A program made the translations under genes and the position numbers. A model generated the notes under the pieces. That model was not told the DNA's origin. It was given only the letters and a program-made list of their open reading frames with translations, and did not search any database. 40,763 nt of DNA, taken from positions 1-40,763 of IMG/VR virus record IMGVR_UViG_3300038427_000339; one strand, written 5' to 3'. This document shows positions 3,866-38,970 of this stretch, in pieces (positions within the stretch are counted from its first letter, which is position 1; each line of letters starts with the position of its first letter). This stretch comes from a virus.

Positions 3866-5091
3866 TGAGACAGATTCTAATTGGTGGGTACTGGGACAGC
3901 TTGTTTCTACCTACAAGTTCAACAGAACTCGACTCTATCAACGGTGGTTACTCATGGTCGAGTGAATGGGTTGCATCTAAAGTGATGCCCACAAATGGTA
4001 CTCTTAGCCGTTTATCTGTCGAAATATACTATGATGGGTCATCCGGTACCGACCCAATGGGTTACTCATTCACTGTACTGAAAAATAATGTCGCAACAGC
4101 TCTCACTGTTAAAATAACATCGCCAGGTACTCAGGAAATAGATACTGCGGATACTGTATCTGTGGTTGCTGGTGATGAAATTTCACTACAGTGCGCACCG
4201 CAAAATAGCCCTACCACCACGGCAAACGCTCATTGGTCAATAATGTTTGAGGGCAGTACTGCCGGTGAAAGTGTAGTTTTGAGTGGTATTGAAGGTTATA
4301 CATCAACACTATATGCTCCTGTGATGACGGCAAATGGTTATAGCGGTAGCTTGTCTGAAGCGGATGTTTTACAAGTTATGCCAACTGCCGGGACATTCAA
4401 GAAGTTATATGTCTTGTATCCCTATGGTCCAGGCGTAGGAGCGTCTTGGAAATTTACGCTGAGGAAAAACAGTGTTGACACCGCTCTTACTGTTACTATA
4501 TCTGGTGCTACTGCATCTGGTAACGATACCGCGGATACTGTATCTGTGGTTGCTGGTGATATAGTCACCATGAGTTGTGTCGTTACCGGTTCACCTACCG
4601 CTCAGCCTGGCGCAATTAGCATGGTATTTGCACCTACCATTGATGGCGAATCTATAATAATGGGCGATTCTAATGATGCCGCGCATGACAATACTGCGTT
4701 TGAAACCAACTATCTTGGCCCTACAGATTATGACCAAGTCTATACGGTAGCCGGTAACGAATTTGTTGATTACCAAGGTGGCCAATCACCACCGCTAGGC
4801 ATGATACTTAAAAAATTCTATGTTGCGCAGACCAGCGCATCAGGCGCTGGAGCTACCTGGAAATACGATATAAGGTGCACAGGTGATACTAATACGGGAA
4901 TAACAGTCAGTATATCGGGAGCATTAGCAACAACAGGTAACGACACAACTAATACCTATAAATGTGTGGATTACGATAGGTTACATCTTGGAACTACCCC
5001 CACCTCAACGCCAACTGTATCTCAAACTTGTTGGTCAGTAGTCTGTTATATCGCACCAAAAGAACCATTACCAATGTTTTTCCCTACTTGA
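3865..5091 (+). CDS. Beta-rich protein with three internal repeats, probable virion surface protein
   Basis: A 408-residue protein without cysteine-rich or enzymatic motifs. It contains three repeats of about 130 residues, each ending in a pattern like TADTVSVVAGD followed by a beta-strand pair. Two of the repeats share an exact 30-base identity (4147-4176 and 4531-4560), pointing to recent duplication or gene conversion. The ATG overlaps the methyltransferase stop by one base (TAATG). High Ser/Thr/Gly content and location beside the fiber gene suggest a secreted or virion adhesin, for which no specific family was recognised. Confidence 0.7.
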   Translation: MRQILIGGYWDSLFLPTSSTELDSINGGYSWSSEWVASKVMPTNGTLSRLSVEIYYDGSSGTDPMGYSFTVLKNNVATALTVKITSPGTQEIDTADTVSVVAGDEISLQCAPQNSPTTTANAHWSIMFEGSTAGESVVLSGIEGYTSTLYAPVMTANGYSGSLSEADVLQVMPTAGTFKKLYVLYPYGPGVGASWKFTLRKNSVDTALTVTISGATASGNDTADTVSVVAGDIVTMSCVVTGSPTAQPGAISMVFAPTIDGESIIMGDSNDAAHDNTAFETNYLGPTDYDQVYTVAGNEFVDYQGGQSPPLGMILKKFYVAQTSASGAGATWKYDIRCTGDTNTGITVSISGALATTGNDTTNTYKCVDYDRLHLGTTPTSTPTVSQTCWSVVCYIAPKEPLPMFFPT

Positions 5092-9132: not shown

Positions 9133-10317
9133 CTATACCTTAAAACTCTCCAATGCCTTGCTTATTTCCGCAACGAATTTTACAACCTGTTCCTTTGTGA
9201 GTTTACCGACCATGACGGTAAGTGTTTCGCCTTCGACCTGGTACATGGAACGCAAATGAGTGGCTAAGGTCACGTTAGACCATGCCAGCAATTTTTTACT
9301 CTGCAAAGCGGCTAGAGACTCTTTAATCCAAGTAAGATTAAGCCCGTTGGGTAAAATATTATCCGCTGGCGGAACGTCAGCTTGTATAATTTTATCCCAG
9401 TCATCGTCACTGGTAGTTTTAATACCCGACCTTATTCCATCTTCAGGAGTAGGAAAGCCGTCTTCAGCCGGATGCGGTACTGCTACGACAACTTGTTTTA
9501 CCTCACCGGTAGTTTTGTCTACAACCTTACCATCTGCCCATAATTCCTCGATATCCTTTCCGGCCTGTGCTATCTTTTCCTCTGGTGACACCTCTATTAA
9601 ATCAGGCTCATCATCATCCGTTTCTTCCTTTCCCGTCAGGTCTATCTCATATATCGCTACCGACTGTCTGGCTGTCTCGGCTAATTGCTGTAAAGTACCG
9701 GAGGTGTTTAAATACATGGCGTAAATCGAATGCTTTTTACCATCAGTCAGATTAGTCTTTTCCACTGGTTTCAGCTCAAGGATAAGTGGAATCATGGTAA
9801 TACGACCGTAAATTGCCTTAATAAATAATTCACCGGATTTGATATTAGTGATTGAGGTATTAGAAGACGTGTCTATTTGCCAGACGCCTAATCCCGGAAC
9901 TTCGTGAATTAGAAATTGGAGATTCATAACACGGCGACAATATCTGTTTTGCTTATAGGCACAATCCTTGCCGGCGCAGTCTATATCGACCATGGCAAAC
10001 TCTTTGCTTTTTTCAGTCGGTAATTGACCGTTAGCGATGTCCCGTAGTTGCACGGCCTTTTCGCCATCGCCTTTGCAGATAAGACCGCGACTCCTGGTAT
10101 AATACCGGTAATACTCACTACGCCATAATTCCGCATTACTTACCGGTATCATAATTCGTAGCTGCTTTGGCTTCGGTCCGAACACTGCCTGAACTTCTGG
10201 CGGACAGACGAAATAGTCAGTCCGCACCGGAGCCCCGTTTATGGGATTTTTTACTCCCAGGTGGATTTTACCCAGACGCGGTAGGTAGTACCTTTGCTCG
10301 ATGTCTTTGATTGGCAT
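9133..10317 (-). CDS. Phage protein resembling Gp3-like recombination directionality factors
   Basis: 394 residues, the largest gene of this operon. The N-terminal half has a Cys cluster (DCAGKDCAYKQNRYC), followed by GVWQIDTSSNTSITNI and a GRITMIPLILELKP stretch. This order resembles the large actinophage protein family that includes the phiC31 Gp3 recombination directionality factor and related metal-binding proteins. An acidic linker separates a C-terminal helical domain of about 90 residues. No serine integrase is visible in this window, so a role in excision cannot be confirmed; a single-strand-binding or replication role is also possible. Confidence 0.45.
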   Translation of the reverse strand: MPIKDIEQRYYLPRLGKIHLGVKNPINGAPVRTDYFVCPPEVQAVFGPKPKQLRIMIPVSNAELWRSEYYRYYTRSRGLICKGDGEKAVQLRDIANGQLPTEKSKEFAMVDIDCAGKDCAYKQNRYCRRVMNLQFLIHEVPGLGVWQIDTSSNTSITNIKSGELFIKAIYGRITMIPLILELKPVEKTNLTDGKKHSIYAMYLNTSGTLQQLAETARQSVAIYEIDLTGKEETDDDEPDLIEVSPEEKIAQAGKDIEELWADGKVVDKTTGEVKQVVVAVPHPAEDGFPTPEDGIRSGIKTTSDDDWDKIIQADVPPADNILPNGLNLTWIKESLAALQSKKLLAWSNVTLATHLRSMYQVEGETLTVMVGKLTKEQVVKFVAEISKALESFKV

Positions 10318-14369: not shown

Positions 14370-14623
14370 TTCTTATAATCCGGTCTTTCAAATTCTGACT
14401 CTGATCTCACAAGTTCATCACCGAAAACATCATATTCAAAACCATCTTGGAATACTACACGATACATTATTAATTCAGGGTCGGCATCTTTTAATCGCCT
14501 TAATACAGTTACTCGCTGGTGGGTATGATGCCATAATTCAGCATCGCATGAATCCTCGCCCTCATAACAATGGTATTCAAATAACCGTCTTCCCCAAGCT
14601 AACCTCTTATCACACACTGGCAT
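14366..14623 (-). CDS. Hypothetical protein
   Basis: 85 residues. N-terminal part Arg/Tyr/Cys-rich (FEYHCYEGEDSC), then ELWHHTHQRVTVLRRL and a strand-rich C terminus (YRVVFQDGFEYDVFGDELV). It overlaps the ATPase gene by 14 bases. No family was recognised. Confidence 0.55.
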   Translation of the reverse strand: MPVCDKRLAWGRRLFEYHCYEGEDSCDAELWHHTHQRVTVLRRLKDADPELIMYRVVFQDGFEYDVFGDELVRSESEFERPDYKK

Positions 14624-15602
14624 TATCTTTCCCCTCGAAGTATCCGTTCTGCATCAGTAGCCAGATACTTTCATGTTTATCCTTTGACACCGATAATCCC
14701 TGCTCGCCGCAAATCCGGTGTAAGTCCTCTAAAAGATACTCTCCGTCTAATCTATCTATCAGTTCTCTTAATGCCGGGTCTTGAGGCACACCAATCCGGT
14801 CGAAGTATTGGTCGTGGGTTTCAAAGTCCGTATCCCTGGCTTTGAACATATCAATGATAGAGGGAGATTTTCTAGTGGTGAAAGGCTCTTGTGTCTCCAC
14901 GTCCACGCCGGCCCAGGCTTCGGATAGCTCCTGACTCCACCACGATACGAGTTCGTTCTTAACCATACCCTGAAATTCCGGCTTCTCGGTATCTATGAAA
15001 GTGTAAGCTCTGGTATCCTCGCCCATTTCCTGCAGGATTTTGAACTTCTGTTTGGCCTCGGTGAGTATATCCCGCATCCACTTGTCTTTACTGCCATACC
15101 GAATCTGCCTAGCTGATGGTTCTTTCAACATGATAGCTCCATAGATACCGCGCAGTATCCGGCTGCCGACATCACTTGAGCTGTGATAGATATAGACAAT
15201 AATCATGTGGCGTTGCCGTGAAAGTGAGTTGTAGCTCTTGAGATGCTCCTCAAGCTCTTTGTTACCCGCCGGCGCAGTGGTCGTTCCCTCATCTATCAAA
15301 GCAATACAGTCCCCGGTCTTTTTCAAGTCCTCTGAGTTTTTGATAACATAGCCTTCGGGTAGCAGCTTTTTCTTAGCTTCGGGAAAGTTCACCACGACAG
15401 GTAAAAGATCGTACTGTTTTGACAGGGTCTCCAGCAAGTAATAGGCCAGACCGGACTTGCCGGCTCCCACGTTGCCGAGGATAACATTAGTCGAGGGGAG
15501 TAATACTAGGTCTTTCAACTGCATGGTATGCGGTTTCGTTTCTTCCGGTTTGGGTTTCTCGTTATTCTGCGAATCCTTTAGGTAATCGGTTATATCGCCC
15601 AT
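14610..15602 (-). CDS. P-loop ATPase, HerA/FtsK or Zot-like, with SAP-like C terminus
   Basis: 330 residues. Walker A is GNVGAGKS at residues 43-50, preceded by a hydrophobic strand (TNVIL); Walker B is CIALIDEG at 99-106; IIVYIYHSSSD may provide the sensor polar residues. This resembles the single-domain P-loop ATPases of the HerA/FtsK packaging and Zot groups. An acidic middle part follows. The end (YLLEDLHRICGEQGLSVS plus a basic helix) resembles a SAP-type DNA-binding motif. It may move or package DNA, or serve replication in the same operon. It lacks the nuclease domain of a terminase large subunit. Confidence 0.6.
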   Translation of the reverse strand: MGDITDYLKDSQNNEKPKPEETKPHTMQLKDLVLLPSTNVILGNVGAGKSGLAYYLLETLSKQYDLLPVVVNFPEAKKKLLPEGYVIKNSEDLKKTGDCIALIDEGTTTAPAGNKELEEHLKSYNSLSRQRHMIIVYIYHSSSDVGSRILRGIYGAIMLKEPSARQIRYGSKDKWMRDILTEAKQKFKILQEMGEDTRAYTFIDTEKPEFQGMVKNELVSWWSQELSEAWAGVDVETQEPFTTRKSPSIIDMFKARDTDFETHDQYFDRIGVPQDPALRELIDRLDGEYLLEDLHRICGEQGLSVSKDKHESIWLLMQNGYFEGKDNASV

Positions 15603-23851: not shown

Positions 23852-24715
23852 ATGAAAAAGGTTGCAGTTTTCAGTGTTAAAGGTGGAGTAGGTAAATCAA
23901 CTGTTTCCGCCGGCCTGTGCCGCGGACTAACTGAAATAGGACTCTATAACCGGGTGGGCTACCTGGAGATTGATATATCCGGCACTTCGGGTCACCGTGC
24001 TTTCGGGATGAATGCACCACGTTTAGGGTTGGATACCGAAAGTGAGAAACTTATCCCACCACTCATAAACGGTATACGGATGTTTCCCTTAGCCTCGAAG
24101 TTCACGGAAAGTGCCTGTGTCGGTTGGAAGAGCACGGACCGGATACTAAGGCTATCCGACGGTGATGAGGTAAATGCAAAAGGCCGTACCGACTTCATTA
24201 AAGCCATACTTACCAAGGTCGTCGATTGGAAGGACACCGCATGGCTGGTACTGGATTTACCACCGAGCTCTAATGAAGAGACATTTACCTTTTTTGAGTG
24301 TATACCTGATTTGTATGGCGTTATTCTGGTATCGCAACCGAGCGAAATAGCCTGTGTCGGTTTGTTAAAGACAATAGATTTCTTGAAGAACGAGCAGGTC
24401 CCCGTTTTGGGTATTGTGGAGAATATGGCGAGCTGTTTATGTCCTTTTTGTAATAATGAGTTTTATCCGTTCACTTCCAAGGGAGTAGACCTTAAAAAAC
24501 TAGCGAAGGATAAAGATATCCCCTACTTAATCTCCATTCCCCAGGTAGACAGCATGGAGAGACTGGAGCCCTATTTTCTTTCTCTGGCGAAGATGGTAGT
24601 GGCCGGACCCGGGAAGGTGGTTGACCAGTATGTATTTTCCAAGAGGGCTGGATTAAAGAGAAGTGTCGTAAAGACTACTTTAGATATCGGTTCCAGAATA
24701 TTTCGGAAGAGGTGA
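23852..24715 (+). CDS. Mrp/NBP35-ParA family ATPase
   Basis: 287 residues of the deviant Walker A group. The P-loop is KGGVGKST at 10-17, the Walker A' Asp is Asp41 in EIDISG, and Walker B is LVLDLPP at 132-138. CPFC at 197-200, in ENMASCLCPFC, is the CxxC seen in Mrp/NBP35 proteins, which carry iron-sulfur clusters, whereas ParA/MinD usually lack it. A basic C-terminal tail of about 60 residues is extra. The tandem repeats directly before the gene could be a partition site or operator. It may act in plasmid-like maintenance or have an Fe-S role. Confidence 0.75.
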   Translation: MKKVAVFSVKGGVGKSTVSAGLCRGLTEIGLYNRVGYLEIDISGTSGHRAFGMNAPRLGLDTESEKLIPPLINGIRMFPLASKFTESACVGWKSTDRILRLSDGDEVNAKGRTDFIKAILTKVVDWKDTAWLVLDLPPSSNEETFTFFECIPDLYGVILVSQPSEIACVGLLKTIDFLKNEQVPVLGIVENMASCLCPFCNNEFYPFTSKGVDLKKLAKDKDIPYLISIPQVDSMERLEPYFLSLAKMVVAGPGKVVDQYVFSKRAGLKRSVVKTTLDIGSRIFRKR

Positions 24716-24718
24716 GTC

Positions 24719-25186
24719 ATGTCGGAAACTAAAATCATGCGAATAATCCGTGCGGGTTTGGAGCTACAGGATACGGTAATTAAGAAGGTCCCAGAGAGTA
24801 AAAGACGGGCCGGCGAGGGCCGTATCGGGAAAATGGTCGTCGATGACCCCGGCGACGGAACGAGTCCCGGTCCGGAACACACCGTAATGTATTTCAAGAT
24901 GCATAACGGGCGCCTTGAAATACTAAATGAAAAGCCGGAGCAGGTACGTAACGAGATTATCTTCCTGGGTTGTCCGGAAAGAGGCTATACCGGAGTAAAG
25001 CTCTTTACCGATGGAATTTACACGCCCGGGTGGTTCCGGTATGCTTGGACACAACAGTGGCTAGTTATCACGGACCCCTTCGGTGATTTAAAAGAATATG
25101 ATGCCGAGGAGATGATACAGCTCTGTGAAGATATGCTGGCGAAAATCGCCGTGAACCTAGCCAGGGAGAAAGGTACTTTCTCATAA
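24719..25186 (+). CDS. Hypothetical protein
   Basis: 155 residues, alpha/beta. An N-terminal amphipathic helix leads to a basic linker and a strand-rich body (HTVMYFKMHNGRLEIL, RNEIIFLGCPERGYTGVKLF) and a helical C terminus. GAGGTGAGTC precedes the ATG four bases after the ATPase stop, so it is co-translated with it and may be its partner. No family was recognised. Confidence 0.6.
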   Translation: MSETKIMRIIRAGLELQDTVIKKVPESKRRAGEGRIGKMVVDDPGDGTSPGPEHTVMYFKMHNGRLEILNEKPEQVRNEIIFLGCPERGYTGVKLFTDGIYTPGWFRYAWTQQWLVITDPFGDLKEYDAEEMIQLCEDMLAKIAVNLAREKGTFS

Positions 25187-25195
25187 GGAGACAGT

Positions 25196-25441
25196 ATGGA
25201 TTTCTATTGCCAAGAAGTAGGAGTAGTGAGAAACTGTCCTGAGTGTGACGGTAAGGGGAGAAAGCCATATCCGTACAATTTCTACCCGTGCCATAGATGT
25301 GAAGGTTATGGGAGGGTAATAGACGTAATGATGACTTATCCGGAGTCTTATGATTCCGGATTTAGACCTATGGGTAAAATGATATTTGCTGGAATTACTG
25401 AGAGACCTTATGACCCTTATAAGAGGGAGAGGGTGTATTAA
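25196..25441 (+). CDS. DnaJ-type zinc-finger protein
   Basis: 81 residues with CPECDGKG and CHRCEGYG, two CxxCxGxG knots spaced 19 residues apart, the DnaJ central zinc domain alone without a J domain. AAGGAGACAG precedes the ATG. Function unknown; such stand-alone domains are frequent in phages. Confidence 0.7.
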   Translation: MDFYCQEVGVVRNCPECDGKGRKPYPYNFYPCHRCEGYGRVIDVMMTYPESYDSGFRPMGKMIFAGITERPYDPYKRERVY

Positions 25442-25453
25442 AAGGAGGTTAAT

Positions 25454-25753
25454 ATGTCTTACTCACTGACGGCTGGTACGCTTAATTATGAGATTCCATT
25501 TCCTCAGCCATTTATACTAAAGCGAGGTTTCCCTTTAATAATCAAGGAAAACGACGACGGGTGGCTTATAGAATGTCCCGCTTTTGATGAATATGGTTAT
25601 GGTAAGACATACCAGCAAGCGTTGAATGATTTAGGAACCTCTCTCTTTGATTCATGGAAGTCCATTGCGAGATTAATCCAGCGGAAGAAAAAACTTGGTG
25701 ATGAATTGGTAAGACAATTTAACTACCTAGATGAGAATATAATCCCAGATTAG
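25454..25753 (+). CDS. HicB-like protein
   Basis: 99 residues. IIKENDDGWLIECPAFDEYG then GKTYQQALNDLGTSLFDSW match the HicB antitoxin fold, in which a GYGxT-like turn precedes a helix. No HicA partner and no added DNA-binding domain are visible, so a toxin-antitoxin role is not claimed. AAGGAGGT precedes the ATG. Confidence 0.55.
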   Translation: MSYSLTAGTLNYEIPFPQPFILKRGFPLIIKENDDGWLIECPAFDEYGYGKTYQQALNDLGTSLFDSWKSIARLIQRKKKLGDELVRQFNYLDENIIPD

Positions 25754-25766
25754 GAAGGGAGGCAGT

Positions 25767-26432
25767 ATGATACAGAATATAGCCTACGTCGTGGTCATTA
25801 TCGGCGCCGTTATGGTCGGGTTATACATCTCCAACATCCTCTATGATTTGAAAGTGCCTCAGTACATCTCTCGCAAAATCGGCCACGCTGCCGGCGGACT
25901 GGGCTTTCTACTTTGTGCGTTGTTATTTAACTCCGGCTGGTGGCTATTCGGCATCACGACCGCGTTTTTCATTATGCTTTTCGGTGCTCGCTTTGTGAAA
26001 CCCGATACCTTCCGCGGTGTCGGCGGTACCGGCCGGGCGAAACAGGCATTTGCTGAGGTATATTTCCCGGCAGCCGCTTTACCGGTTATCGCTATCGGCT
26101 GGGTCTGGCTCAATAAACCAATTATAGCGGTAGCCTGTTTGTTGTTTATGGCCTGGGGTGATTGTGTGACGGGTATTGTACGCTCGCAGATTTATGGTAA
26201 GGCTGTCAAGGGACTCTGGGGGTCTGCGGCAATGCTGGTAGCCAGTCTGATAATAGCATGGGCCTTCGTCACGCCTTTCTGGATAGGCGCTATCGGCGCA
26301 ATTATAGCTACGGTTACGGAATGGGCCTGCGGGGATGTAGGAATACTTAAATGGGCCGATGATAATTGGGCCATACCGATAGTCAGTTTTGCCGTTATAT
26401 TCGGGTTACTGGCAGGGACCGGGAGATTATAG
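25767..26432 (+). CDS. Polyprenol/dolichol kinase-like membrane protein (CdsA/Sec59 family)
   Basis: 221 residues with about seven transmembrane helices. Conserved marks of the phytol/dolichol kinase and CDP-lipid synthase family are RKxxH at 36-40 (SRKIGH), WGD at 130-132, KGLWGS at 148-153 and a C-terminal EWACGDV then ADDNWAIPIVS at 185-207, matching the family's E...DDN...IP pattern. Members use CTP to phosphorylate polyprenols or activate phosphatidate at the inner membrane. Genes downstream include a UbiA prenyltransferase, so a role in isoprenoid-lipid synthesis is likely. AGGGAGGCAG precedes the ATG. Confidence 0.7.
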   Translation: MIQNIAYVVVIIGAVMVGLYISNILYDLKVPQYISRKIGHAAGGLGFLLCALLFNSGWWLFGITTAFFIMLFGARFVKPDTFRGVGGTGRAKQAFAEVYFPAAALPVIAIGWVWLNKPIIAVACLLFMAWGDCVTGIVRSQIYGKAVKGLWGSAAMLVASLIIAWAFVTPFWIGAIGAIIATVTEWACGDVGILKWADDNWAIPIVSFAVIFGLLAGTGRL

Positions 26433-26462
26433 GATAAAAAATATAAGAAAGGAGAAAAAGAA

Positions 26463-26714
26463 ATGTTTATCGAAGCTAAGGCGTGGTCTACTGATACAAT
26501 AGTGGACGTAATCAAAGACGGTATTGCCCTTGCTAAAAAGAACGAATGTTGGGTTAAAGTGCAGTGGCAGGACAAATTAATCTGGATTGCACAGGATGAT
26601 GACCTTCTATTTTTGCTTAGAGAAGTTTGTATATTGGACCCGAATGTAACGAAATTGGCGAATGGTCGGGAAATAATTACTATTGTAAGTGAGCCTAAAT
26701 TTCCGGTCTTATAA
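26463..26714 (+). CDS. Hypothetical protein
   Basis: 83 residues. TIVDVIKDGIALAKKNECWVK then a strand pair (LIWIAQDDDLLFLLREV). Preceded by AAAGGAGAAAAAG. It sits between the polyprenol kinase-like gene and small zinc proteins. No family was recognised. Confidence 0.55.
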   Translation: MFIEAKAWSTDTIVDVIKDGIALAKKNECWVKVQWQDKLIWIAQDDDLLFLLREVCILDPNVTKLANGREIITIVSEPKFPVL

Positions 26715-26725
26715 GAAGGATAAGC

Positions 26726-26971
26726 ATGGGTAAGCGGAAGAAAGAGAGGCTCCAGCGTATAAACCTCGGCCTGGAGAATCCTATCTCTCAAAGGCCAAGA
26801 TTTTGTCTGTTATGTGGTAGGCCAGTCCAGGTTGTAGATTGTCGCCAGCATATTCATGACTGCTGGGGTATTGACCTTAAACCTGATGAACCCATACCAT
26901 GGGTACCACCAAAGGAAGCTATTATAAAATACTCCCAGCGACAAATGCAAAAGGAGGAAGAGCATGTCTAA
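26726..26971 (+). CDS. Hypothetical zinc-binding protein
   Basis: 81 residues. CLLCGRPVQVVDCRQHIHDC resembles a C2-H-C zinc finger, with a basic N terminus (MGKRKKERLQRIN) and an acidic C-terminal tail. The stop overlaps the next start by eight bases. Confidence 0.55.
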   Translation: MGKRKKERLQRINLGLENPISQRPRFCLLCGRPVQVVDCRQHIHDCWGIDLKPDEPIPWVPPKEAIIKYSQRQMQKEEEHV

Positions 26972-27200
26972 TTACATATCCGACGAGCAGGTGATTATTA
27001 ATCTACAGGGTTTACGATGGTGCAAAAAGTCTGATGCGCAATATATCAACTACGTTCACTATGGTCTAGAATGGGATTATAAAGGTGGTCACGGGACGCA
27101 TACTTATAACGATAAAGAAAAGCGGGACGAAATGTTTAACAGGTTACGCGCTGCATTGGCCGTGGCTGAAATAAAAGAGACTAAGAATGTTAAGGTGTAA
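26964..27200 (+). CDS. Hypothetical protein
   Basis: 78 residues, Tyr/His-rich in the middle (DAQYINYVHYGLEWDYKGGH) with a helical C terminus. GGAAGAGC precedes the ATG inside the end of the previous gene. No family was recognised. Confidence 0.55.
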   Translation: MSNYISDEQVIINLQGLRWCKKSDAQYINYVHYGLEWDYKGGHGTHTYNDKEKRDEMFNRLRAALAVAEIKETKNVKV

Positions 27201-27342
27201 GCATCCATCGCCGCACAGCCGTCACCGACCCTGCGGTAAAAAAGCGACCTATATGGTCCAGGAGGAGCCGGAATTTCCGGTTTGCGAGGAGCACGCCCAC
27301 TTCTATTCTAGGATTAAAAAGATAGTACCAAAGGCGTATTAG
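27187..27342 (+). CDS. 51-residue zinc-finger-like protein
   Basis: Short gene overlapping the previous one by 14 bases. CKHPSPHSRHRPC then CEEHAHFYSRIKK give cysteines and histidines with zinc-site spacing. The packing with both neighbours, and an AGAGGAGG at its stop serving the next gene, support it. Confidence 0.55.
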   Translation: MLRCKHPSPHSRHRPCGKKATYMVQEEPEFPVCEEHAHFYSRIKKIVPKAY

Positions 27343-27357
27343 AGGAGGTAAGGCAAG

Positions 27358-27507
27358 GTGTTTAGACGATTGATGGTGAAAATAATGGTATGGAGATTAC
27401 GCCATAATAGGCGAGTTATGGCTGGTCTTGAGAAAAGTTTACAGGAATACAAAGAAGGCAAATTTAAACCCTGGTCAGAAGTAAAAAAAGAGTTAAATAT
27501 TGAGTAA
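27358..27507 (+). CDS. 49-residue basic helical protein
   Basis: GTG start eight bases after AGAGGAGG. The N-terminal half is strongly basic (MFRRLMVKIMVWRLRHNRR); the end, LQEYKEGKFKPWSEVKKEL, resembles the C-terminal helix pattern of small antitoxin-like proteins. No toxin partner is seen, so the function is open. Confidence 0.5.
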   Translation: MFRRLMVKIMVWRLRHNRRVMAGLEKSLQEYKEGKFKPWSEVKKELNIE

Positions 27508-27521
27508 TTAAAGGTGATACC

Positions 27522-27752
27522 ATGGAGTTCAATCAAGACGAACTGCTAAAACTTGTAGCCCAGAATTTAGACCTGCCGGAAGCTATGGTTAAACCAGAAG
27601 CTACCTTCAAAGAGGATCTCGGTGCTGACTCACTGGATTTAGTCGAGATGGCGATGGCTCTCGAGGAGAAATATGGTGTCGATATATCGGATGAAGATAT
27701 GGAGAAGTTTACCCGGGTCCAGGATGCTATTGATTATATGAAGGGAGTGTAA
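27522..27752 (+). CDS. acpP-like: Acyl carrier protein
   Basis: 76 residues, the full size and pattern of a type II acyl carrier protein: acidic, four helices, with the phosphopantetheine attachment Ser37 in GADSLDLVEM. A host 4'-phosphopantetheinyl transferase would convert it to the active form. The AAAGGTGATACC leader precedes the ATG. The condensing-enzyme gene begins at the base after its stop, which suggests a dedicated carrier for that enzyme. It could instead tap the host fatty-acid pool. Confidence 0.92.
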   Translation: MEFNQDELLKLVAQNLDLPEAMVKPEATFKEDLGADSLDLVEMAMALEEKYGVDISDEDMEKFTRVQDAIDYMKGV

Positions 27753-28883
27753 ATGAGAGAGAAGCTAATATCTATCGGTTATGCCGTCCCGGAGTTATCC
27801 TATACCCAGGACCAGATTTTTGAGCTTATTGGCTATCCCAAAGGATGGCTGCGGTTTTTTCGGGGCAGTGGGATAGATAAGAGGCACTTCTGCATACCGC
27901 TGACTCAGGCCATGAAATTGTCTCTTCAAGAGCAGCAAGACCTTTATATACCTAAAGCAACGGAATTATCCTGCCAAGTGATATTGAAGTGTCTTGACGG
28001 TAGAGACCAAAAGAAAATAAACCGTGTGGTGTACGGTAGCTGTACGGGTTTAGCTCCCGGTCCGACAATAGCCCATTATTTTAGTGCCAAACTTGGTTTC
28101 GCGCCTAATGTATTCGTAGCAAATAATTCTGCTATGGGCTGCGAAGGAGCTTTTCCGGGATTAAAAATAGCTTTAGACCATGTCAAGGCTAACGGCGGTA
28201 TGGCACTGGCGGTCAACTGTGAACTTTCCAGCTTAGTATTTTGGCCGGAAGATGACGTGGCACGACGGCCTGACCCAGAGAATGATTTTGAAGTAGCGCG
28301 CGCCAATGCTGTTTTTGCGGACGGGGCGATGGCGGCACTAGTTGGTTATGACGACGACTGGCGGCACCCGTATATTCTTGATATGGAGACTTATACCGAA
28401 CCTAAATATGCCGACGAATTAGGCTTTATCTGGCGGAACGGACGTTTAAGAGTAAGGCTCTCGAGACGGGTACCAGAATTGGCTCCTTTAGTAGTAAAAC
28501 CGGCGGTCGATGCGGTGTTGTCGAGAATGAATATGAGGGTACCGGATGTCAGATGGTGGGTTATTCATGCGGCCGGGAATATCGTAATTGATAATATCGG
28601 TAGGGCGCTCAATCTACCAGAAGAGAAGTTGTTTCTTTCGCGGGAGACATTGAGACTCTACGGTAACACCTCGAGCACGTCGGTGGGGATTACTGGGAAG
28701 CGTCTGATGAGTGAGAGTATTCAGCCGGGTGATTACATTATGATGCTTTCCGTAGGTCCCGGAATGAGCGGAGGCGCAACTTGCCTTCGTTTTGGCGATA
28801 AACGAGTAGTGGCTATCGTCGGTAATGAATCGGAAATGAAACGAAAAGAAATAAATATAGCATGGTCAGGAGCGATGGTATGA
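27753..28883 (+). CDS. Type III polyketide synthase-like condensing enzyme
   Basis: 376 residues of the thiolase fold. The catalytic triad is Cys130 (SAMGCEGAF), His272 (WWVIHAAGN) and Asn305 (YGNTSST). Spacings of 142 and 33 residues fit chalcone synthase-type enzymes (139 and 33) better than FabH-type ketoacyl-ACP synthase III (132 and 30). IDKRHF near the N terminus, VFADGAMAALVG and the C-terminal GPGMSGGATCLRF also match type III synthases. The HPGG loop is HAAG here. It would extend an acyl or isoprenoid starter with malonyl units; the adjacent ACP suggests ACP-bound substrates. The stop overlaps the next start as ATGA. Confidence 0.75.
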   Translation: MREKLISIGYAVPELSYTQDQIFELIGYPKGWLRFFRGSGIDKRHFCIPLTQAMKLSLQEQQDLYIPKATELSCQVILKCLDGRDQKKINRVVYGSCTGLAPGPTIAHYFSAKLGFAPNVFVANNSAMGCEGAFPGLKIALDHVKANGGMALAVNCELSSLVFWPEDDVARRPDPENDFEVARANAVFADGAMAALVGYDDDWRHPYILDMETYTEPKYADELGFIWRNGRLRVRLSRRVPELAPLVVKPAVDAVLSRMNMRVPDVRWWVIHAAGNIVIDNIGRALNLPEEKLFLSRETLRLYGNTSSTSVGITGKRLMSESIQPGDYIMMLSVGPGMSGGATCLRFGDKRVVAIVGNESEMKRKEINIAWSGAMV

Positions 28884-29095
28884 ATTGGGATGAACTACTC
28901 ATAGAACTTCAACTGAAAGGCGTAAAAGTCCGTGTTACTCTTAATAAAGATGAGCCATTTGTAATTGAGTGTGAAGACGAGGTGGTCGCCGGATATGTTG
29001 CTAAACTTATAGCTAGTAAGGGTTTAACCATAATAGGCCCCGATGGAGAAAAAACAGTAGTTTATCCAAAGGTTAGGATAATAGACGGAGAGTGA
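28880..29095 (+). CDS. Hypothetical small protein in the lipid-gene cluster
   Basis: 71 residues from the ATG that overlaps the condensing-enzyme stop and follows AGGAGCGATGGT. Beta-rich (VKVRVTLNKDEPFVIECEDEV, then TIIGPDGEKTVVYPKVRIID). It may be a small partner, but no family was recognised. Confidence 0.5.
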   Translation: MNWDELLIELQLKGVKVRVTLNKDEPFVIECEDEVVAGYVAKLIASKGLTIIGPDGEKTVVYPKVRIIDGE

Positions 29096-29098
29096 GAA

Positions 29099-30049
29099 AT
29101 GAAAAAGAAACTTATGGCACACTTATTCCAACTCCCGCGCTGGTTCGCAATTCCCTTCTTCGGCGCGTCGGCATTGCTTGGGTCCGTACTGGCCGGTGGC
29201 ATTACCGCTAACGCCTGGATAGCGTTTGTCGCCTGTCTGTTAGTCATGGCTGGCGGACATTCCTTTAATTCCTACCTGGACTACGCGTGGACCGGGTTAG
29301 ATAAAGGTGAGTTAGAAAACCGGAGCGCGGAAAAGACCTATACCGGCGGGCAGAATCTTCTCGAGACGAAAGTAGTTAGTCTCAGTGAAGTATTTACCAA
29401 TGCTGTGTTCTGGTATATTCTATCGGCAATCCCAATAATATATCTGGCGACCAGTGTAACCTGGTTGATTATTATTCCCTGGGTAGCGGGGATGCTGATG
29501 ACGTTCTGGTACTCTAAGAGCAAATTCAACTATACCCATGAACTCGCTCTCGGTTGTGCAGTCGGGCCAGTACCGATGATTATTGGTATGTTAGCAGTTA
29601 ATCCCGCAGCAAACTGGGTACACGTCCTATTAGTTAGTGTACCCTTCGCTATCGTACTTAGTTTTGCCGGGTTAGCCATTGATGAATGGCCCGATGCTGA
29701 AGCTAATCTTAGAAAGGGTGTGAAGAGCCTGGCGTATGAGGTGTGGAAATGGTCAGATTATGTGTCGATAGACCGTCCAGATTATGCTTTAGGCGAACTA
29801 TGGGTAAAATCCCTGTCTACTCTCCAATGGTACCTGACTGGCTGGTTCTTATTCATGTTTTTCTACCAGGGAGTACTCATCAATCTAAATATCTTGAAAC
29901 CTCTTACCGGGCTGGCCTTCCTGGCATTTCCCTTCCTGATGGCCTGTATGCTAAAACTCAAGTCCAGTTTTAAGAAGTGGGCAGCGATTACCGTTATCGT
30001 CGGTGCCTTATATGTGATATTACTGTTGGTAGGACAGATATTGGGTTAA
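29099..30049 (+). CDS. UbiA-family prenyltransferase
   Basis: 316 residues with about nine membrane helices. The first Asp-rich motif is NSYLDYAWTGLD at 57-68, and TYTGGQNLLETKVVS follows as in MenA-type members. The second motif is DEWPDAEANLRKGVKSL at 195-211. These bind magnesium and the prenyl diphosphate. The enzyme would transfer a prenyl chain to an aromatic or lipid acceptor at the inner membrane. A GAGTGAGA leader precedes the ATG. Confidence 0.9.
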   Translation: MKKKLMAHLFQLPRWFAIPFFGASALLGSVLAGGITANAWIAFVACLLVMAGGHSFNSYLDYAWTGLDKGELENRSAEKTYTGGQNLLETKVVSLSEVFTNAVFWYILSAIPIIYLATSVTWLIIIPWVAGMLMTFWYSKSKFNYTHELALGCAVGPVPMIIGMLAVNPAANWVHVLLVSVPFAIVLSFAGLAIDEWPDAEANLRKGVKSLAYEVWKWSDYVSIDRPDYALGELWVKSLSTLQWYLTGWFLFMFFYQGVLINLNILKPLTGLAFLAFPFLMACMLKLKSSFKKWAAITVIVGALYVILLLVGQILG

Positions 30050-30062
30050 TCGGGAGTGTGTC

Positions 30063-30446
30063 ATGTTGCATACTCACTTTTTCCCTACTATATTACCAGT
30101 GGATGGTGAGGAATGTATTGCTTCGGGGAAATGTGAGTGCGGGTTAGTTAAATATTTTATTGACTACTATGGGGAGACTAAAGAGGGGATTTCACTAAAG
30201 GGATTAGAGAAAAGAGTAGCCGAGCTTAATAAAAAGTCTGAGGCTGAGTTTGAGAGAATAAGGATACCGATACCACCAAGAGGGAACCGAGCATTGATGC
30301 GGGATTACTATGGGAACAATAAAGCCCGGATATTTGCTCAGGTTGGTAAATACGGTTTTAACGCCACTAGAAACAGGCTGAGGATTTCAAGGAGAACACT
30401 GTACTATATCATAAAGACTGTGAAAAATAAGATGCTCGCTAAGTAG
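30063..30446 (+). CDS. Hypothetical protein with C-terminal helix-turn-helix
   Basis: 127 residues. ECIASGKCECGLVKYF near the N terminus may bind metal; a charged coiled region follows, and FNATRNRLRISRRTLYYII at the end is a helix-turn-helix of the homeodomain-like type. Possible small regulator between the UbiA and insertion-bearing segments. Confidence 0.55.
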   Translation: MLHTHFFPTILPVDGEECIASGKCECGLVKYFIDYYGETKEGISLKGLEKRVAELNKKSEAEFERIRIPIPPRGNRALMRDYYGNNKARIFAQVGKYGFNATRNRLRISRRTLYYIIKTVKNKMLAK

Positions 30447-30498
30447 TGTTGTTACTTGACATAAATAATTGCACTAGGGTAAATGAGTATAAAATATG

Positions 30499-30507
30499 GT
30501 GTTAGAT
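30499..30507 (+). repeat. Target-site duplication, left copy
   Basis: GTGTTAGAT, identical to 30940-30948 at the other side of the 432-bp element. Removing the element and one copy restores ATG GTG TTA GAT AGA as the start of the zinc-ribbon gene. Confidence 0.8.
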
Positions 30508-30939
30508 GGCTTTGCCTAAAAAGTGGCACTTGCCCAAAAAATCAACGAGTTGCCCAAAAAGTCGGTTCTATCTCCAGTTCGTAAATTGATTGAATCAGGA
30601 CGCGGAATAAATATTAATGACTATCTATAGTATACCCAATATATCACAAGGAATCACAAATAATCACAAACAACGGACATTATCGGATGTCTATGTAACT
30701 ATAGGACAAGCATCAAGGTTAAGCCTTGTTAATAGAGCCACTATTAGAAGATGGATAAAAACTGGGAGATTAAAAGGGGAAAAAATGGGATTGGTTACTT
30801 TGATTTTAAAAGACGATGTAATAAAAATTGCTAAGGAAAGAGGAACTATGTAATATGGTAGCGAGCAATTTCGACTTTTTGGGCAGAAATGGCAGTTGCC
30901 TAAAAAGTAACCCCGAAAGCCGACTTATTGGGCAAAGGC
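30508..30939. mobile_element. 432-bp insertion element with imperfect terminal inverted repeats
   Basis: The left end reads GGCTTTGCCTAAAAAGT; the right end, on the other strand, reads GCCTTTGCCCAATAAGT, 14 matches in 17. A 9-bp duplication GTGTTAGAT flanks it. Further copies of TTGCCyAAAAAGT lie inside both ends, in both orientations (30512, 30530, 30550, 30872, 30896, 30921). It has no transposase; its only gene is a MerR-type helix-turn-helix protein. The ends and duplication length recall IS5/IS903-type elements (GGCTTTGTT ends, 9-bp duplication), so a non-autonomous relative is the best guess. It splits the start of the zinc-ribbon gene. Confidence 0.75.
30617..30853 (+). CDS. MerR/excisionase-like helix-turn-helix protein inside the insertion
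   Basis: 78 residues. VTIGQASRLSLVNRATIRRW and TGRLKGEKMGLVTLI form a MerR or excisionase-type domain similar to the N-terminal part of IS607 TnpA, but no recombinase domain follows. It is carried by the 432-bp element and presumably binds the TTGCCCAAAAAGT repeats on both sides. The start codon lies in an A/T-rich leader with a weak ribosome site. Confidence 0.65.
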   Translation: MTIYSIPNISQGITNNHKQRTLSDVYVTIGQASRLSLVNRATIRRWIKTGRLKGEKMGLVTLILKDDVIKIAKERGTM

Positions 30940-30948
30940 GTGTTAGAT
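30940..30948 (+). repeat. Target-site duplication, right copy
   Basis: GTGTTAGAT directly after the right end of the insertion element; see 30499-30507. Confidence 0.8.
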
Positions 30949-31143
30949 AGATTATTTCCACCAAGACAGGTTACCTTTATTAACCGGGCGCTGGCGCCGT
31001 GGGTAAGGAAACCTCAAGGTGCGCTAAAGTGCTGTATCTGTGGCAGTTATGAGGTACTGCATATCGGTGGTATCAAAGACTTCTGGTTGTGCTTCAAGTG
31101 TCACACCAGACTCATATTTAAGAAAGAAGATAATAAGAGGTGA
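30940..31143 (+). CDS. Zinc-ribbon protein, 5' end displaced by the insertion
   Basis: About 67 residues. CCICGSYEV and CFKCHTRLI form a zinc ribbon after a basic N-terminal stretch (FPPRQVTFINRALAPWVRK). Before insertion the gene would have begun MVLDRLFPP at 30496; the right target duplication now supplies a GTG (30940) in frame, and a TTG at 30928 inside the element is the alternative. The stop overlaps the reductase start (GTGA). It may still be made, from the new start. Confidence 0.6.
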   Translation: MLDRLFPPRQVTFINRALAPWVRKPQGALKCCICGSYEVLHIGGIKDFWLCFKCHTRLIFKKEDNKR

Positions 31144-32051
31144 ATGTTTTAGTCACGGGCGCCAGCGGATTCATGGGGAAAGCCCTGGCTGATAGACTAT
31201 TAGAAGAGGGTCACGTTGTCTATGCCCTATCCCGTCATCCTCCCGCCGTAAGAGATGGTCTTATCCCGGTAGAGGGCGACGTGACGGTAGATAATCTTGG
31301 TGTTACCTACCTGCCTAAAATAGAACGTGTGTACCATTTAGCGGGAATCGTAAATCTCGGTCATGACCACGACGGCATGACATATAAAACTAATGTTCAG
31401 GGTACTGCCAATGTGTTGAAGTTCTGTGCTCGATACGAGATACCTCATTTATTATTCTGCTCAACGGCTTATACCTTCTGTCGTAATCCGTATGAACAGA
31501 GTAAAGCCGTAGCAGAGTTGATGGTACGCAATTCCGATATACCGTTAAAGACTATCTTTAAACCATCTATCGTGCTTGGGACTAAAGCGTACCCGGAATA
31601 CGGTCATTTCTCACAGTTTGCCGCTACGTTTATCAGAATACACCGGCGGGCAGAAATCATCCGGCGCGGCGCGGAAGATATATTAAGGTTACCGGTTATA
31701 AGACCAGTATTCCGTGTCCGGGGTAATGGCGGGGGATATTTGAACCTGGTTAAGATTTATGATGTCGTTAATAAGATGGCGTCTGTAGATAAGCCCGGTA
31801 CCTGCTGGCTGACTAACCGGAATCCGCCGAAACTGGGTTACCTGCTTAAACTTATCGGAGAAATGGCGATGGTTGAGGCAATTTTCGTAAATGACTTCCA
31901 TGCTAACCTGATAGAATCACAGTTTAATCGACTGATTAGAGCCTTTCTGCCGTATTTAGGTGGCGATGACCTGCCTTCGGATATCGAGCAGTGTGAACTT
32001 ACCGAAGATTTTCTAAGGTGGACAATAAATAACCAGTTACAAAGGGGATAG
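31140..32051 (+). CDS. Extended SDR family NAD(P)-dependent reductase
   Basis: 303 residues. The NAD(P) motif TGASGFMG lies at 6-13; VYHLAGIVN and CSTAYTF mark the extended SDR; the catalytic pair is Tyr118 and Lys122 (NPYEQSK). The C-terminal domain lacks sugar-nucleotide signatures and resembles 3-beta-hydroxysteroid dehydrogenase or OleD-like lipid-tailoring reductases rather than sugar epimerases. GTG start overlapping the zinc-ribbon stop. Its position makes it the reductive step of the putative lipid/polyketide cluster. Confidence 0.75.
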   Translation: MNVLVTGASGFMGKALADRLLEEGHVVYALSRHPPAVRDGLIPVEGDVTVDNLGVTYLPKIERVYHLAGIVNLGHDHDGMTYKTNVQGTANVLKFCARYEIPHLLFCSTAYTFCRNPYEQSKAVAELMVRNSDIPLKTIFKPSIVLGTKAYPEYGHFSQFAATFIRIHRRAEIIRRGAEDILRLPVIRPVFRVRGNGGGYLNLVKIYDVVNKMASVDKPGTCWLTNRNPPKLGYLLKLIGEMAMVEAIFVNDFHANLIESQFNRLIRAFLPYLGGDDLPSDIEQCELTEDFLRWTINNQLQRG

Positions 32052-32053
32052 GT

Positions 32054-32443
32054 ATGAAGCTAGTTAGCCAGAAGGTAGTAGACAATAAGCAGGGTGATTG
32101 TTTTGCTGCTTGTCTGAATTCTATTTTAGAACGCGAAGATGTGCCTAACTGTCATACCGATAGAGAGCGTCATTGGCTCTCAAAATACAATGAATTTCTA
32201 AAGCCGCTTGGTTATCAAATAAGTTATTTTACAGTAGGGCACGCACCAACCCCTTACGGACACTTTATTATTTCGGTAAAATCGTATCTATTCGAGGGTC
32301 AATATCATTCTGTAGTTGGGTACACAAATAACTTTGGCGAGAGTACGATAGTTCATAATCCAAATCCTGAAGACCCGCGTGGGGTAAATATACCAGTTGA
32401 GGATTGGAGGCTAATTTATTTCATCTCGCATCGTTTTGATTAA
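32054..32443 (+). CDS. Papain-like/C39-like cysteine peptidase
   Basis: 129 residues. GDCFAACLNSIL holds the likely nucleophile Cys16; HSVVGYTN gives His85, and IVHNPNPEDPRG gives Asn102, the order of a papain-fold catalytic triad (C39-like or transglutaminase-like). It has no signal peptide and would act in the cytoplasm or virion. Co-transcribed two bases after the reductase. Confidence 0.6.
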   Translation: MKLVSQKVVDNKQGDCFAACLNSILEREDVPNCHTDRERHWLSKYNEFLKPLGYQISYFTVGHAPTPYGHFIISVKSYLFEGQYHSVVGYTNNFGESTIVHNPNPEDPRGVNIPVEDWRLIYFISHRFD

Positions 32444-36602: not shown

Positions 36603-37274
36603 ATGACTGTTACACTCTCGGTAGCCGACTTTGAGTTATCCACACGCAGTGCTTCTGGTTTCATCCTAAAGTATATCGCTCCCCGCATGGAACCCGTTAT
36701 GCTCTACGGTCCGCTGGCGCGGCGTTTTCCATTTACTCTATCCGCACCGCATTCCGATGTGATTATTGTTGTAGGTCACGGTGATGACGATCAGGTTAAC
36801 GGTCAGCACGATGCCATACTCTTAAAAGTAGGCGAGTATAACGATAATGAGGTAAAAAATAAAGTAATTTACTCCTTTTCTTGCCTTTCTGCGGTAGAAC
36901 TCGGACCCGATTTGATTAATCGTGGCGCGACCGCATTCCTCGGTTGGAATGACGATTATTTATGGATGATCGACGAATCACAATTACTCACACCATGGAA
37001 CGATAAACTGGCGGCTCCCTGTATCATGCCGGTGATTGACGGTTTAAATGCTTTGCTTGACGGTAAGACCATGAGTGAGGTTAAACAATTACAACTCGAC
37101 AGTTATTCTGATTACGCCACTAGGACGGATGATGAATTAATCAAAGACCTAGTGCAGTTTAATCAGAGTAATTTTGTTTTGTATGGCGATCCGCAAGCAC
37201 ATATTAACCCAAGACCGCCGTTGCCCAGTATTTTTAATTACGTTTCTCCGCCGCCAATGCTCTTGCCGATTTGA
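36603..37274 (+). CDS. Caspase/gingipain-like (clan CD) cysteine peptidase
   Basis: 223 residues. The caspase-fold pair is His59 in VIIVVGHGDDD and Cys94 in VIYSFSCLSAV, followed by LGPDLINRGATAFLGW, the clan CD pattern in which a cysteine strand is followed by a helix and a Gly-rich strand. NFVLYGDPQ near the end matches the LLGDP segment of C25 (gingipain-type) peptidases. No signal peptide. In a structural operon it might mature virion proteins; alternatively it could serve lysis or act on the host. AGGAGG precedes the ATG. Confidence 0.65.
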   Translation: MTVTLSVADFELSTRSASGFILKYIAPRMEPVMLYGPLARRFPFTLSAPHSDVIIVVGHGDDDQVNGQHDAILLKVGEYNDNEVKNKVIYSFSCLSAVELGPDLINRGATAFLGWNDDYLWMIDESQLLTPWNDKLAAPCIMPVIDGLNALLDGKTMSEVKQLQLDSYSDYATRTDDELIKDLVQFNQSNFVLYGDPQAHINPRPPLPSIFNYVSPPPMLLPI

Positions 37275-38223: not shown

Positions 38224-38970
38224 ATGGCAAATTATAATCTGATTACGGGTAAACTACAGAACCTGCAGAGCACACCACTCACCCAGGATGAGATGGCTGC
38301 TTTCAACCGCTGGTTTAATAGGCTGGTAGCGCAAAAGGCGGAGATTGATCTCGATATAGCCGCGTCCTTTGAGAAGCAAAAGGACTTCTACTCCTTCTGT
38401 GCCACTGTCGCCAAGAGTTACTTTGCGACCAATAACCTACCCTTTGTCCCGGAGGAACCGACGAGCGGTACTTTCGGTGTCCGGGAACTTCTGCCGGTAG
38501 ACCTCGGCGCGAATGCGATTGTCTGGGGTACTCCACCCGCTACGGCTGCCTTCCATAGCTGGGCACAGGCACTCACCGTTGCTGCCGCTAATGGCTGGAC
38601 GAATCTTTTCGGCACACCGGCAGCCCCCATTACCCCATCCAACACGCAGAGCTACCACAGTTTGCTGGCCTTCCACTCGCTGATTTCCTGGCAGCCGGGC
38701 ACGCGCATCTTGGCTCTCAAGCACACGGTCAATGCCTATACCTATCCAGAGGTCAGCGTCGAGCAAGAAGCTAAGATCGACAAGCCGTTCAAGACCTTCA
38801 AACTAATCCCGCTGGAAGGCGACTTCCTGATTCATCCGACCGGCACCTTTAATACCCGGTTGGAACTCGAGAAGAATGTTTTCGCCAACGCCGAGACATA
38901 TACTGAGCAGCTTGCTCTACTGGGCCTGGTGTTTGCGGAATATAGCTACCTGAATGCAGAAATTAACTAA
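38224..38970 (+). CDS. Candidate major virion protein
   Basis: 248 residues with a GGAGGA ribosome site. A helical N-terminal part (QDEMAAFNRWFNRLVAQKAE), a central Thr/Ala-rich region and a beta-rich C terminus (FKLIPLEGDFLIHPTGTFNTRLELEKNV) characterise it. Position and strong ribosome site suggest an abundant structural protein; a capsid role is inferred only. No homologous family was recognised. Confidence 0.5.
   Translation: MANYNLITGKLQNLQSTPLTQDEMAAFNRWFNRLVAQKAEIDLDIAASFEKQKDFYSFCATVAKSYFATNNLPFVPEEPTSGTFGVRELLPVDLGANAIVWGTPPATAAFHSWAQALTVAAANGWTNLFGTPAAPITPSNTQSYHSLLAFHSLISWQPGTRILALKHTVNAYTYPEVSVEQEAKIDKPFKTFKLIPLEGDFLIHPTGTFNTRLELEKNVFANAETYTEQLALLGLVFAEYSYLNAEIN

Follow-up and report, generated by a model that had tools for sequence, protein, structure and literature searches.

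Why would a virus carry what looks like a small pathway of membrane lipid synthesis? The question is raised by a 40,763-base virus record of IMG/VR (IMGVR_UViG_3300038427_000339; this entire stretch of DNA is called the window, and positions refer to it unless another contig is named), whose virus-type genes include a clamp loader, a nucleotide-sugar epimerase and an Ig-domain structural protein. An earlier note on this DNA had singled out five plus-strand genes at 25767-32051 as a prenylated-polyketide or lipid biosynthesis cluster, and domain matches and motifs confirm all five there: a kinase-like membrane protein, an acyl carrier protein (ACP), a type III polyketide synthase (PKS), a UbiA-superfamily prenyltransferase and an extended short-chain dehydrogenase/reductase (SDR). 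Our reading, to which we give a probability of about one half, is that the virus produces or modifies a membrane lipid of prenylated phenolic or quinone-like type. That the cluster is phage-borne, has intact active sites and is co-inherited stands; that UbiA prenylates the PKS product is less certain, because the core of the cluster also exists without a PKS, and a specific role such as the superinfection exclusion suggested earlier is a conjecture.

Conservation of the gene unit

The genes belong to a compact plus-strand series that spans 23852-32443, with many intergenic gaps of 14 bp or less and several small uncharacterised open reading frames (ORFs) interspersed within the cluster segment. 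Relatives were sought in IMG/VR and in 84,980 prokaryote species genomes by scanning, and by additional genome searches; a scan of viral records that used the PKS as its one query sequence returned nothing, and alignments were needed to detect them. Twelve further contigs carry the unit, namely the virus records L002, L004, L005 and L106 and the contigs L006, L007, L008 and L094-L098 from metagenome-assembled genomes (MAGs), which bears out the co-occurrence of these genes in other phage contigs. Throughout the resulting set of 13 contigs, i.e. the window and 12 divergent viral or virus-like contigs, the same gene order recurs: Mrp-like ATPase, SCP2-like protein and kinase, followed by UbiA and, in most cases, by PKS and SDR. 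The five genes originally described are thus real but do not delimit the unit, which begins upstream at 23852 and also includes the Mrp-like and SCP2-like genes, while the ACP is confined to the window and PKS and SDR are not in all relatives.

Every sufficiently long contig has the Mrp, SCP2, kinase and UbiA genes (UbiA in 13 of 13 contigs; kinase in 12 contigs and on two chromosomes; Mrp in 11 of 13, missing only where the contig is cut); PKS is present in nine contigs, in one of them as a fragment, and SDR in nine of the 13. Sequence identity to the window is 46–66% for the kinase, 33–69% for UbiA, 46–73% for the PKS (34% for that of L106), 47–79% for the SDR, 29–40% for Mrp and 23–29% for SCP2. 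The ratio of nonsynonymous to synonymous substitutions (dN/dS) is 0.11–0.16 for L097/L098 and L095/L096, the two most closely related pairs: the cluster evolves under purifying selection. In-frame stops, due either to sequencing error or to real decay, occur in the SDR gene of L006 (2432-3340, codon 246) and in the UbiA gene of L097 (1276-2157).

Since the order recurs in 13 divergent contigs under purifying selection, neither chance nor misassembly explains the cluster. Host DNA misassembled into a phage contig, an outcome that the earlier note had considered, is ruled out by recurrence in independent viral records (five IMG/VR records, the window included) and by shared virus genes, among them that of a virion-region protein conserved at 51% in two of these records. 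It is likewise very hard to believe that these are passenger host genes of no benefit to the virus. The kinase-UbiA pair does occur on host chromosomes, but the low dN/dS, the conserved order, the repeated retention in the 13 contigs, and the existence of PKS and UbiA clades specific to the cluster all speak against it.

Enzymes and predicted chemistry

The condensing enzyme (27753-28883, plus strand, 376 aa) has the N- and C-terminal Chal_sti_synt domains and the triad C130-H272-N305, which is intact in the window and conserved in every covering member. The earlier note had taken the spacing of this triad as a sign of a type III PKS rather than FabH, and the profile scores agree: in NCBIfam the window protein scores 102 bits with DpgA versus 68 and 58 bits with FabH-type models, and the PKSs of the relatives score 131–135 bits with DpgA, the FabH-type scores ranging overall from 45 to 68. 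When a profile of seven cluster PKSs was compared with all PDB chains, the top match was Pks11 (6.5e-37), and only type III PKSs were found among the best 60 matches. FabH/KAS III or OleA identity is ruled out by the profile scores, and no FabH appears among those 60 matches; the enzyme is also not DpgA, because scores of 102–135 bits fall short of 425, the equivalog cut-off for DpgA. A tree that also includes 30 type III PKSs of Chloroflexota unites the cluster enzymes in a single clade (100/100), with a long separation from the Chloroflexota ones. By profile and triad, then, this is a type III PKS, and repeated malonyl condensation with ring closure is predicted for it. The ACP (27522-27752, plus strand, 76 aa; PF00550 7.1e-15, NCBIfam ACP 1e-25) has its phosphopantetheine serine within a DSL motif, and its end abuts the start of the PKS gene with a gap of 0 bp. 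Its earlier description as a dedicated ACP gains no support from the relatives: none of the 12 contigs has an ACP homologue.

The MenA-like prenyltransferase (29099-30049, plus strand, 316 aa) has two Asp-rich motifs, NSYLDYAWTGLD and DEWPDAEAN, which in the main clade take the form NxxxDxxxxxxD and DExxDxxxN; residues N57, D61, D68, D195 and D199 are conserved in the covering members. A dead PKS or UbiA active site, which would have spoken against a working pathway, is therefore not what is seen. The window protein itself has no Pfam match; PF01040 is above cut-off for the homologues in L010 and L025 (8.5e-13 for the chromosomal homologue). In NCBIfam the cluster UbiAs match mainly MenA models (8e-7 for the window protein) and no phosphoribosyltransferase model, and the chiefly MenA-type matches therefore point to an aromatic-acceptor type of enzyme. 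Membership in MenA proper, the 1,4-dihydroxy-2-naphthoate prenyltransferase, was rejected: the score is 28 bits versus a cut-off of 277, and the cluster clade is separate from the host MenA-like proteins (100/100). Judged from sequence, the cluster UbiA is a distinct subfamily, apart from the MenA-like proteins of Dehalococcoidia. Two diverged UbiA types occupy the same place in the cluster and the kinase tree is discordant with this division, which suggests that in some members UbiA was swapped for a distant homologue, i.e. that the step itself was retained. A search for virus records with the divergent second type found none.

The kinase-like protein (25767-26432, plus strand, 221 aa) is a divergent integral membrane protein with the conserved motifs SRKxGH, GDxxTGxxR, KGxxGS and DDN, and its AlphaFold2 (AF2) model has eight helices at a predicted local distance difference test (pLDDT) score of 88. 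A profile comparison with hhalign aligned it to 202-aa proteins (E 6.4e-7, prob 92), which we take, by motif alone, to be of the COG0170-like SEC59/VTE5/DGK1 group; these partners have no relevant Pfam or NCBIfam match. It is likely, on these grounds, a CTP-dependent lipid kinase of the SEC59/VTE5/DGK1 type, acting on a polyprenol or phytol.

The two upstream genes of the unit were absent from the earlier description. The SCP2-like protein (24719-25186, plus strand, 155 aa; same position in 11 contigs) was modelled by AF2 with moderate confidence (pLDDT 78.7); in a Foldseek search with this model the best PDB match was UbiJ-SCP2 (E 4.9e-5, prob 1.00), SCP2-type entries occupied ranks 1–14, and the homologue in L004 matches SCP2 (PF02036) at 5e-4. 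According to the model, the protein has the SCP2 fold. UbiJ and UbiT are lipid-binding helpers in ubiquinone synthesis, and quinone intermediates are the presumed ligands of the SCP2 domain of UbiJ (PMC10470549). The first gene of the unit (23852-24715, plus strand) encodes a 287-aa Mrp/ParA-type P-loop ATPase (PF10609 1.1e-37) with the Walker A motif KGGVGK, kept wherever the gene is complete. A role for it as an Mrp/ApbC iron-sulfur carrier is weakened by the CxxC motif, which is present in the window and L106 and replaced in most relatives.

The SDR (31140-32051, plus strand, 303 aa; PF07993 (NAD_binding_4) 4.5e-21, PF01370 (Epimerase) 2.8e-19) keeps the motifs TGASGFMG and YxxxK across the cluster relatives. 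It additionally matches nucleotide-sugar epimerases (PHROG 540, 1e-20; HpnA and LegB in NCBIfam), as would be expected if the genes served polyprenyl-phosphate sugar chemistry, in which the kinase would yield polyprenyl phosphate, UbiA would act as a decaprenyl-phosphate phosphoribosyltransferase, the SDR would be a sugar epimerase, and the product would decorate the envelope. The virus record that contains L002 also has a block of glycosyltransferase and sugar genes (L012), which fits as well. We nevertheless hold this scheme to be quite improbable, given the mainly MenA-type matches of UbiA reported above, and it leaves the PKS, the ACP and the UbiJ-like SCP2 protein unaccounted for.

On the preferred reading of a prenylated phenolic or quinone-like lipid, these parts could act in sequence. 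The CTP-dependent kinase would phosphorylate a host polyprenol and so feed the pool of UbiA donors, either directly or after a second phosphorylation, as its family suggests. From malonyl units and an acyl starter, which in the window virus the neighbouring ACP perhaps delivers, the PKS would build a ring of resorcinol or pyrone type. In the membrane, UbiA may then attach the prenyl chain to an aromatic acceptor, which would be the product of the PKS if there is one and otherwise possibly a host aromatic, and the SDR may reduce or rearrange the product. By analogy with UbiJ and UbiT in ubiquinone synthesis, the protein with the computed SCP2 fold might hold the greasy intermediates. The resulting lipid would alter the membrane of the infected or lysogenic cell, or enter the virion.

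Several observations weigh against this scheme. The viral cluster has no methyltransferase or hydroxylase, and a finished quinone is for that reason not evident. Neither Pfam nor NCBIfam has a model that matches the kinase, and the fold search of PDB with its AF2 model gave nothing at E≤0.001; because of this negative fold search its assignment rests on the motifs and the one profile comparison. In all covering UbiA members, the chromosomal ones included, the canonical ND of motif I is NS, NT or NA, and in motif II N takes the place of the final Asp. Evolutionary distances for kinase and UbiA are uncorrelated (Spearman −0.02), from which it appears that the unit has been partly shuffled. Finally, the 44.9 kb record L004 keeps kinase, UbiA and SDR without a PKS, and the chromosomal kinase-UbiA pairs also lack one, so that PKS and UbiA do not necessarily work towards one product. 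In L004 an IS605-type TnpB-like gene (3922-5076, minus strand) is inserted between kinase and UbiA.

The main rival is accordingly that the cluster consists of two separable lipid modules in one operon, a kinase-UbiA-SCP2 module that prenylates a host metabolite, and a PKS, with the SDR and here the ACP, that makes an unprenylated membrane lipid, an alkylpyrone or alkylresorcinol. It would account for L004 and, to the extent that it is sequenced, L008, in which the core lacks a PKS, for the kinase-UbiA pair standing alone on the chromosomal contigs L009 and L010, and for the variable position of the PKS, which either separates kinase from UbiA or follows UbiA; the closest solved PKS, Pks11, is moreover an alpha-pyrone synthase. 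What argues against it is that the PKS, where present, is never more than a few kb away from UbiA and kinase, and that kinase and PKS distances are closely correlated (Spearman 0.94 over 10 pairs). On balance we regard the two-module explanation as a serious one, if rather unlikely.

Three small ORFs of the plus strand complete the segment. One of 81 aa (25196-25441) resembles a DnaJ zinc finger (PF00684 1.9e-4, below cut-off), and tblastn of the relatives gave no match to it; one of 127 aa (30063-30446) is common only to the window and its closest relative L006 (86% identical); a Cys-rich one of 71 aa (30928-31143) is also in L006 (67%).

Hosts and type of virus

In a taxonomically unrestricted genome scan, four of the five matches were Dehalococcoidia MAGs and one was a Methanoregulaceae MAG; by these links, which come from binning only, the hosts are probably Dehalococcoidia bacteria. 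Two Dehalococcoidia contigs that are chromosomal by their neighbours carry the kinase-UbiA pair. In L010 (9321-10924) we read these neighbours as trmD, mraZ, rsmH, ftsA and ftsZ; in L009 (4151-6489, methyltransferase included) the pair is followed by a UbiE-type methyltransferase (PF01209 5e-20), an enzyme that is the usual partner in quinone synthesis. The chromosomal pair is an undescribed cellular prenyl-lipid operon, and its presence in L009 and L010 indicates that the kinase-UbiA pair is also cellular and has moved between host and virus. Because cultured Dehalococcoides lack quinones (PMC10772276), a lipid carrier supplied by the virus is conceivable.

The group is probably temperate, because relatives have integrases and the window encodes a protein of the Gp3-like recombination directionality factor family (9133-10317, minus strand; PF18897 4e-40). 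A similar-looking protein is found in the 85 kb record (L112 4887-6377, minus strand), which downstream of the cluster also has a subtilase-type protease interrupted by an apparent intein (L106 13576-15891).

The lipid might instead be destined for the particle. If the group were non-tailed, with a membrane-containing virion, the pathway would make the particle's own lipid. Among the PHROG matches listed (best 25 families) for the window and four large relatives there is no terminase, portal or major capsid protein, and since neither a terminase nor a major capsid protein can be recognised in the group, its virions might contain lipid. The cluster also adjoins putative virion genes, and a small P-loop ATPase common to the window (14610-15602, minus strand) and the 85 kb relative (L110 8465-9316; BLASTP 24% identity, E 3e-11) recalls, by our own reading of its Walker A and B motifs, the small packaging ATPases of A32/HerA type. 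No database family fits it, and PDB searches with the small P-loop ATPases returned nothing meaningful. Against a membrane virion, the same PHROG evidence, limited to those 25 families and to records that are fragments, includes weak tail-type matches (virion-region proteins match tail-spike, protease and Ig-domain families). We consider it improbable that the pathway serves a non-tailed, membrane-containing particle.

Other proteins of the virion region deserve mention. Three proteins of 235–254 aa (window 38224-38970; L014 11770-12531 and L017 11896-12600, both minus strand) are 20–27% identical with a similar C-terminal pattern, and are candidate major virion proteins with no family match. 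A 223-aa protein (36603-37274), 51% conserved in two other virus records, has no Pfam match; by eye we take it to be caspase/CHAT- or gingipain-like. At the 5' end of the window, positions 1-600 are GC-rich (63%) because of collagen-like Gly-Pro-Thr/Gly-Ala-Thr repeats, probably part of a fibre protein cut by the end of the record.

Known systems and significance

These results can be set beside known pathways with similar parts. In the tocopherol pathway the phytol kinases VTE5 and VTE6 feed the UbiA-type HPT (VTE2), so that here too a CTP-type isoprenoid-alcohol kinase supplies a UbiA aromatic prenyltransferase; that pathway, however, is of plants and cyanobacteria, uses a homogentisate ring and has no PKS. 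In the cannabinoid and hop bitter-acid pathways a membrane UbiA prenylates the ring that a type III PKS has made, but these pathways consist of plant genes and lack the kinase, ACP and SCP2. Coccolithovirus sphingolipid genes are a precedent for a virus-encoded lipid pathway, in a eukaryotic giant virus and with unrelated enzymes and lipid. Ubiquinone and menaquinone synthesis combines UbiA or MenA with an SCP2 carrier (UbiJ or UbiT), and a UbiE-like methyltransferase stands beside the chromosomal homologue; its ring, though, comes from chorismate instead of a PKS, it has no CTP kinase, and the viral UbiA is in a separate clade. Some respiratory quinones of Actinobacteria are built with a type III PKS, a methyltransferase and an oxidoreductase; in the pkqABC operon of Mycobacterium smegmatis and Streptomyces an alkylresorcinol ring made by the type III PKS leads to a membrane lipid and electron carrier in low oxygen (PMC9927152). 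That operon is cellular, has no UbiA, polyprenol kinase or SCP2, and includes a methyltransferase and an oxidoreductase that are absent from the viral cluster; having no methyltransferase or hydroxylase, the latter does not qualify as a polyketide quinone operon. The viral unit combines parts of the polyketide quinone, ubiquinone and tocopherol systems and matches none of them.

Bacterial viruses are known to carry single metabolic genes; we found no report in the literature of a conserved multi-step membrane prenyl-lipid or polyketide pathway in them. Among 50,697 annotated phage records, UbiA and the kinase have no match, the PKS only two weak matches of 24% in Listeria phage records, and the SDR only partial matches of 27–30%, mostly to sugar epimerases. 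Literature searches returned nothing relevant on phage type III PKS or UbiA clusters, or on metabolic genes of Dehalococcoidia viruses, and in the passages searched a 2025 review of phages and natural products describes no such pathway.

The boldest version of the preferred reading, which we advance as a speculation with the odds well against it, is that an undescribed Dehalococcoidia virus lineage, possibly non-tailed and lipid-containing, gives the membrane of its host or of its virion a polyketide-prenyl lipoquinone or phenolic lipid of its own making; the virus would then bring a membrane redox or structural lipid that the host lacks. Should the reading of a prenylated phenolic or quinone-like lipid be right, the cluster would open an unexplored set of enzymes, in which the UbiA is unusual, the CTP-dependent isoprenoid kinase divergent and the type III PKS clade virus-specific, and would be a directly testable example of how a virus rewrites the membrane chemistry of its host, in a bacterial class whose cultured Dehalococcoides are quinone-less.

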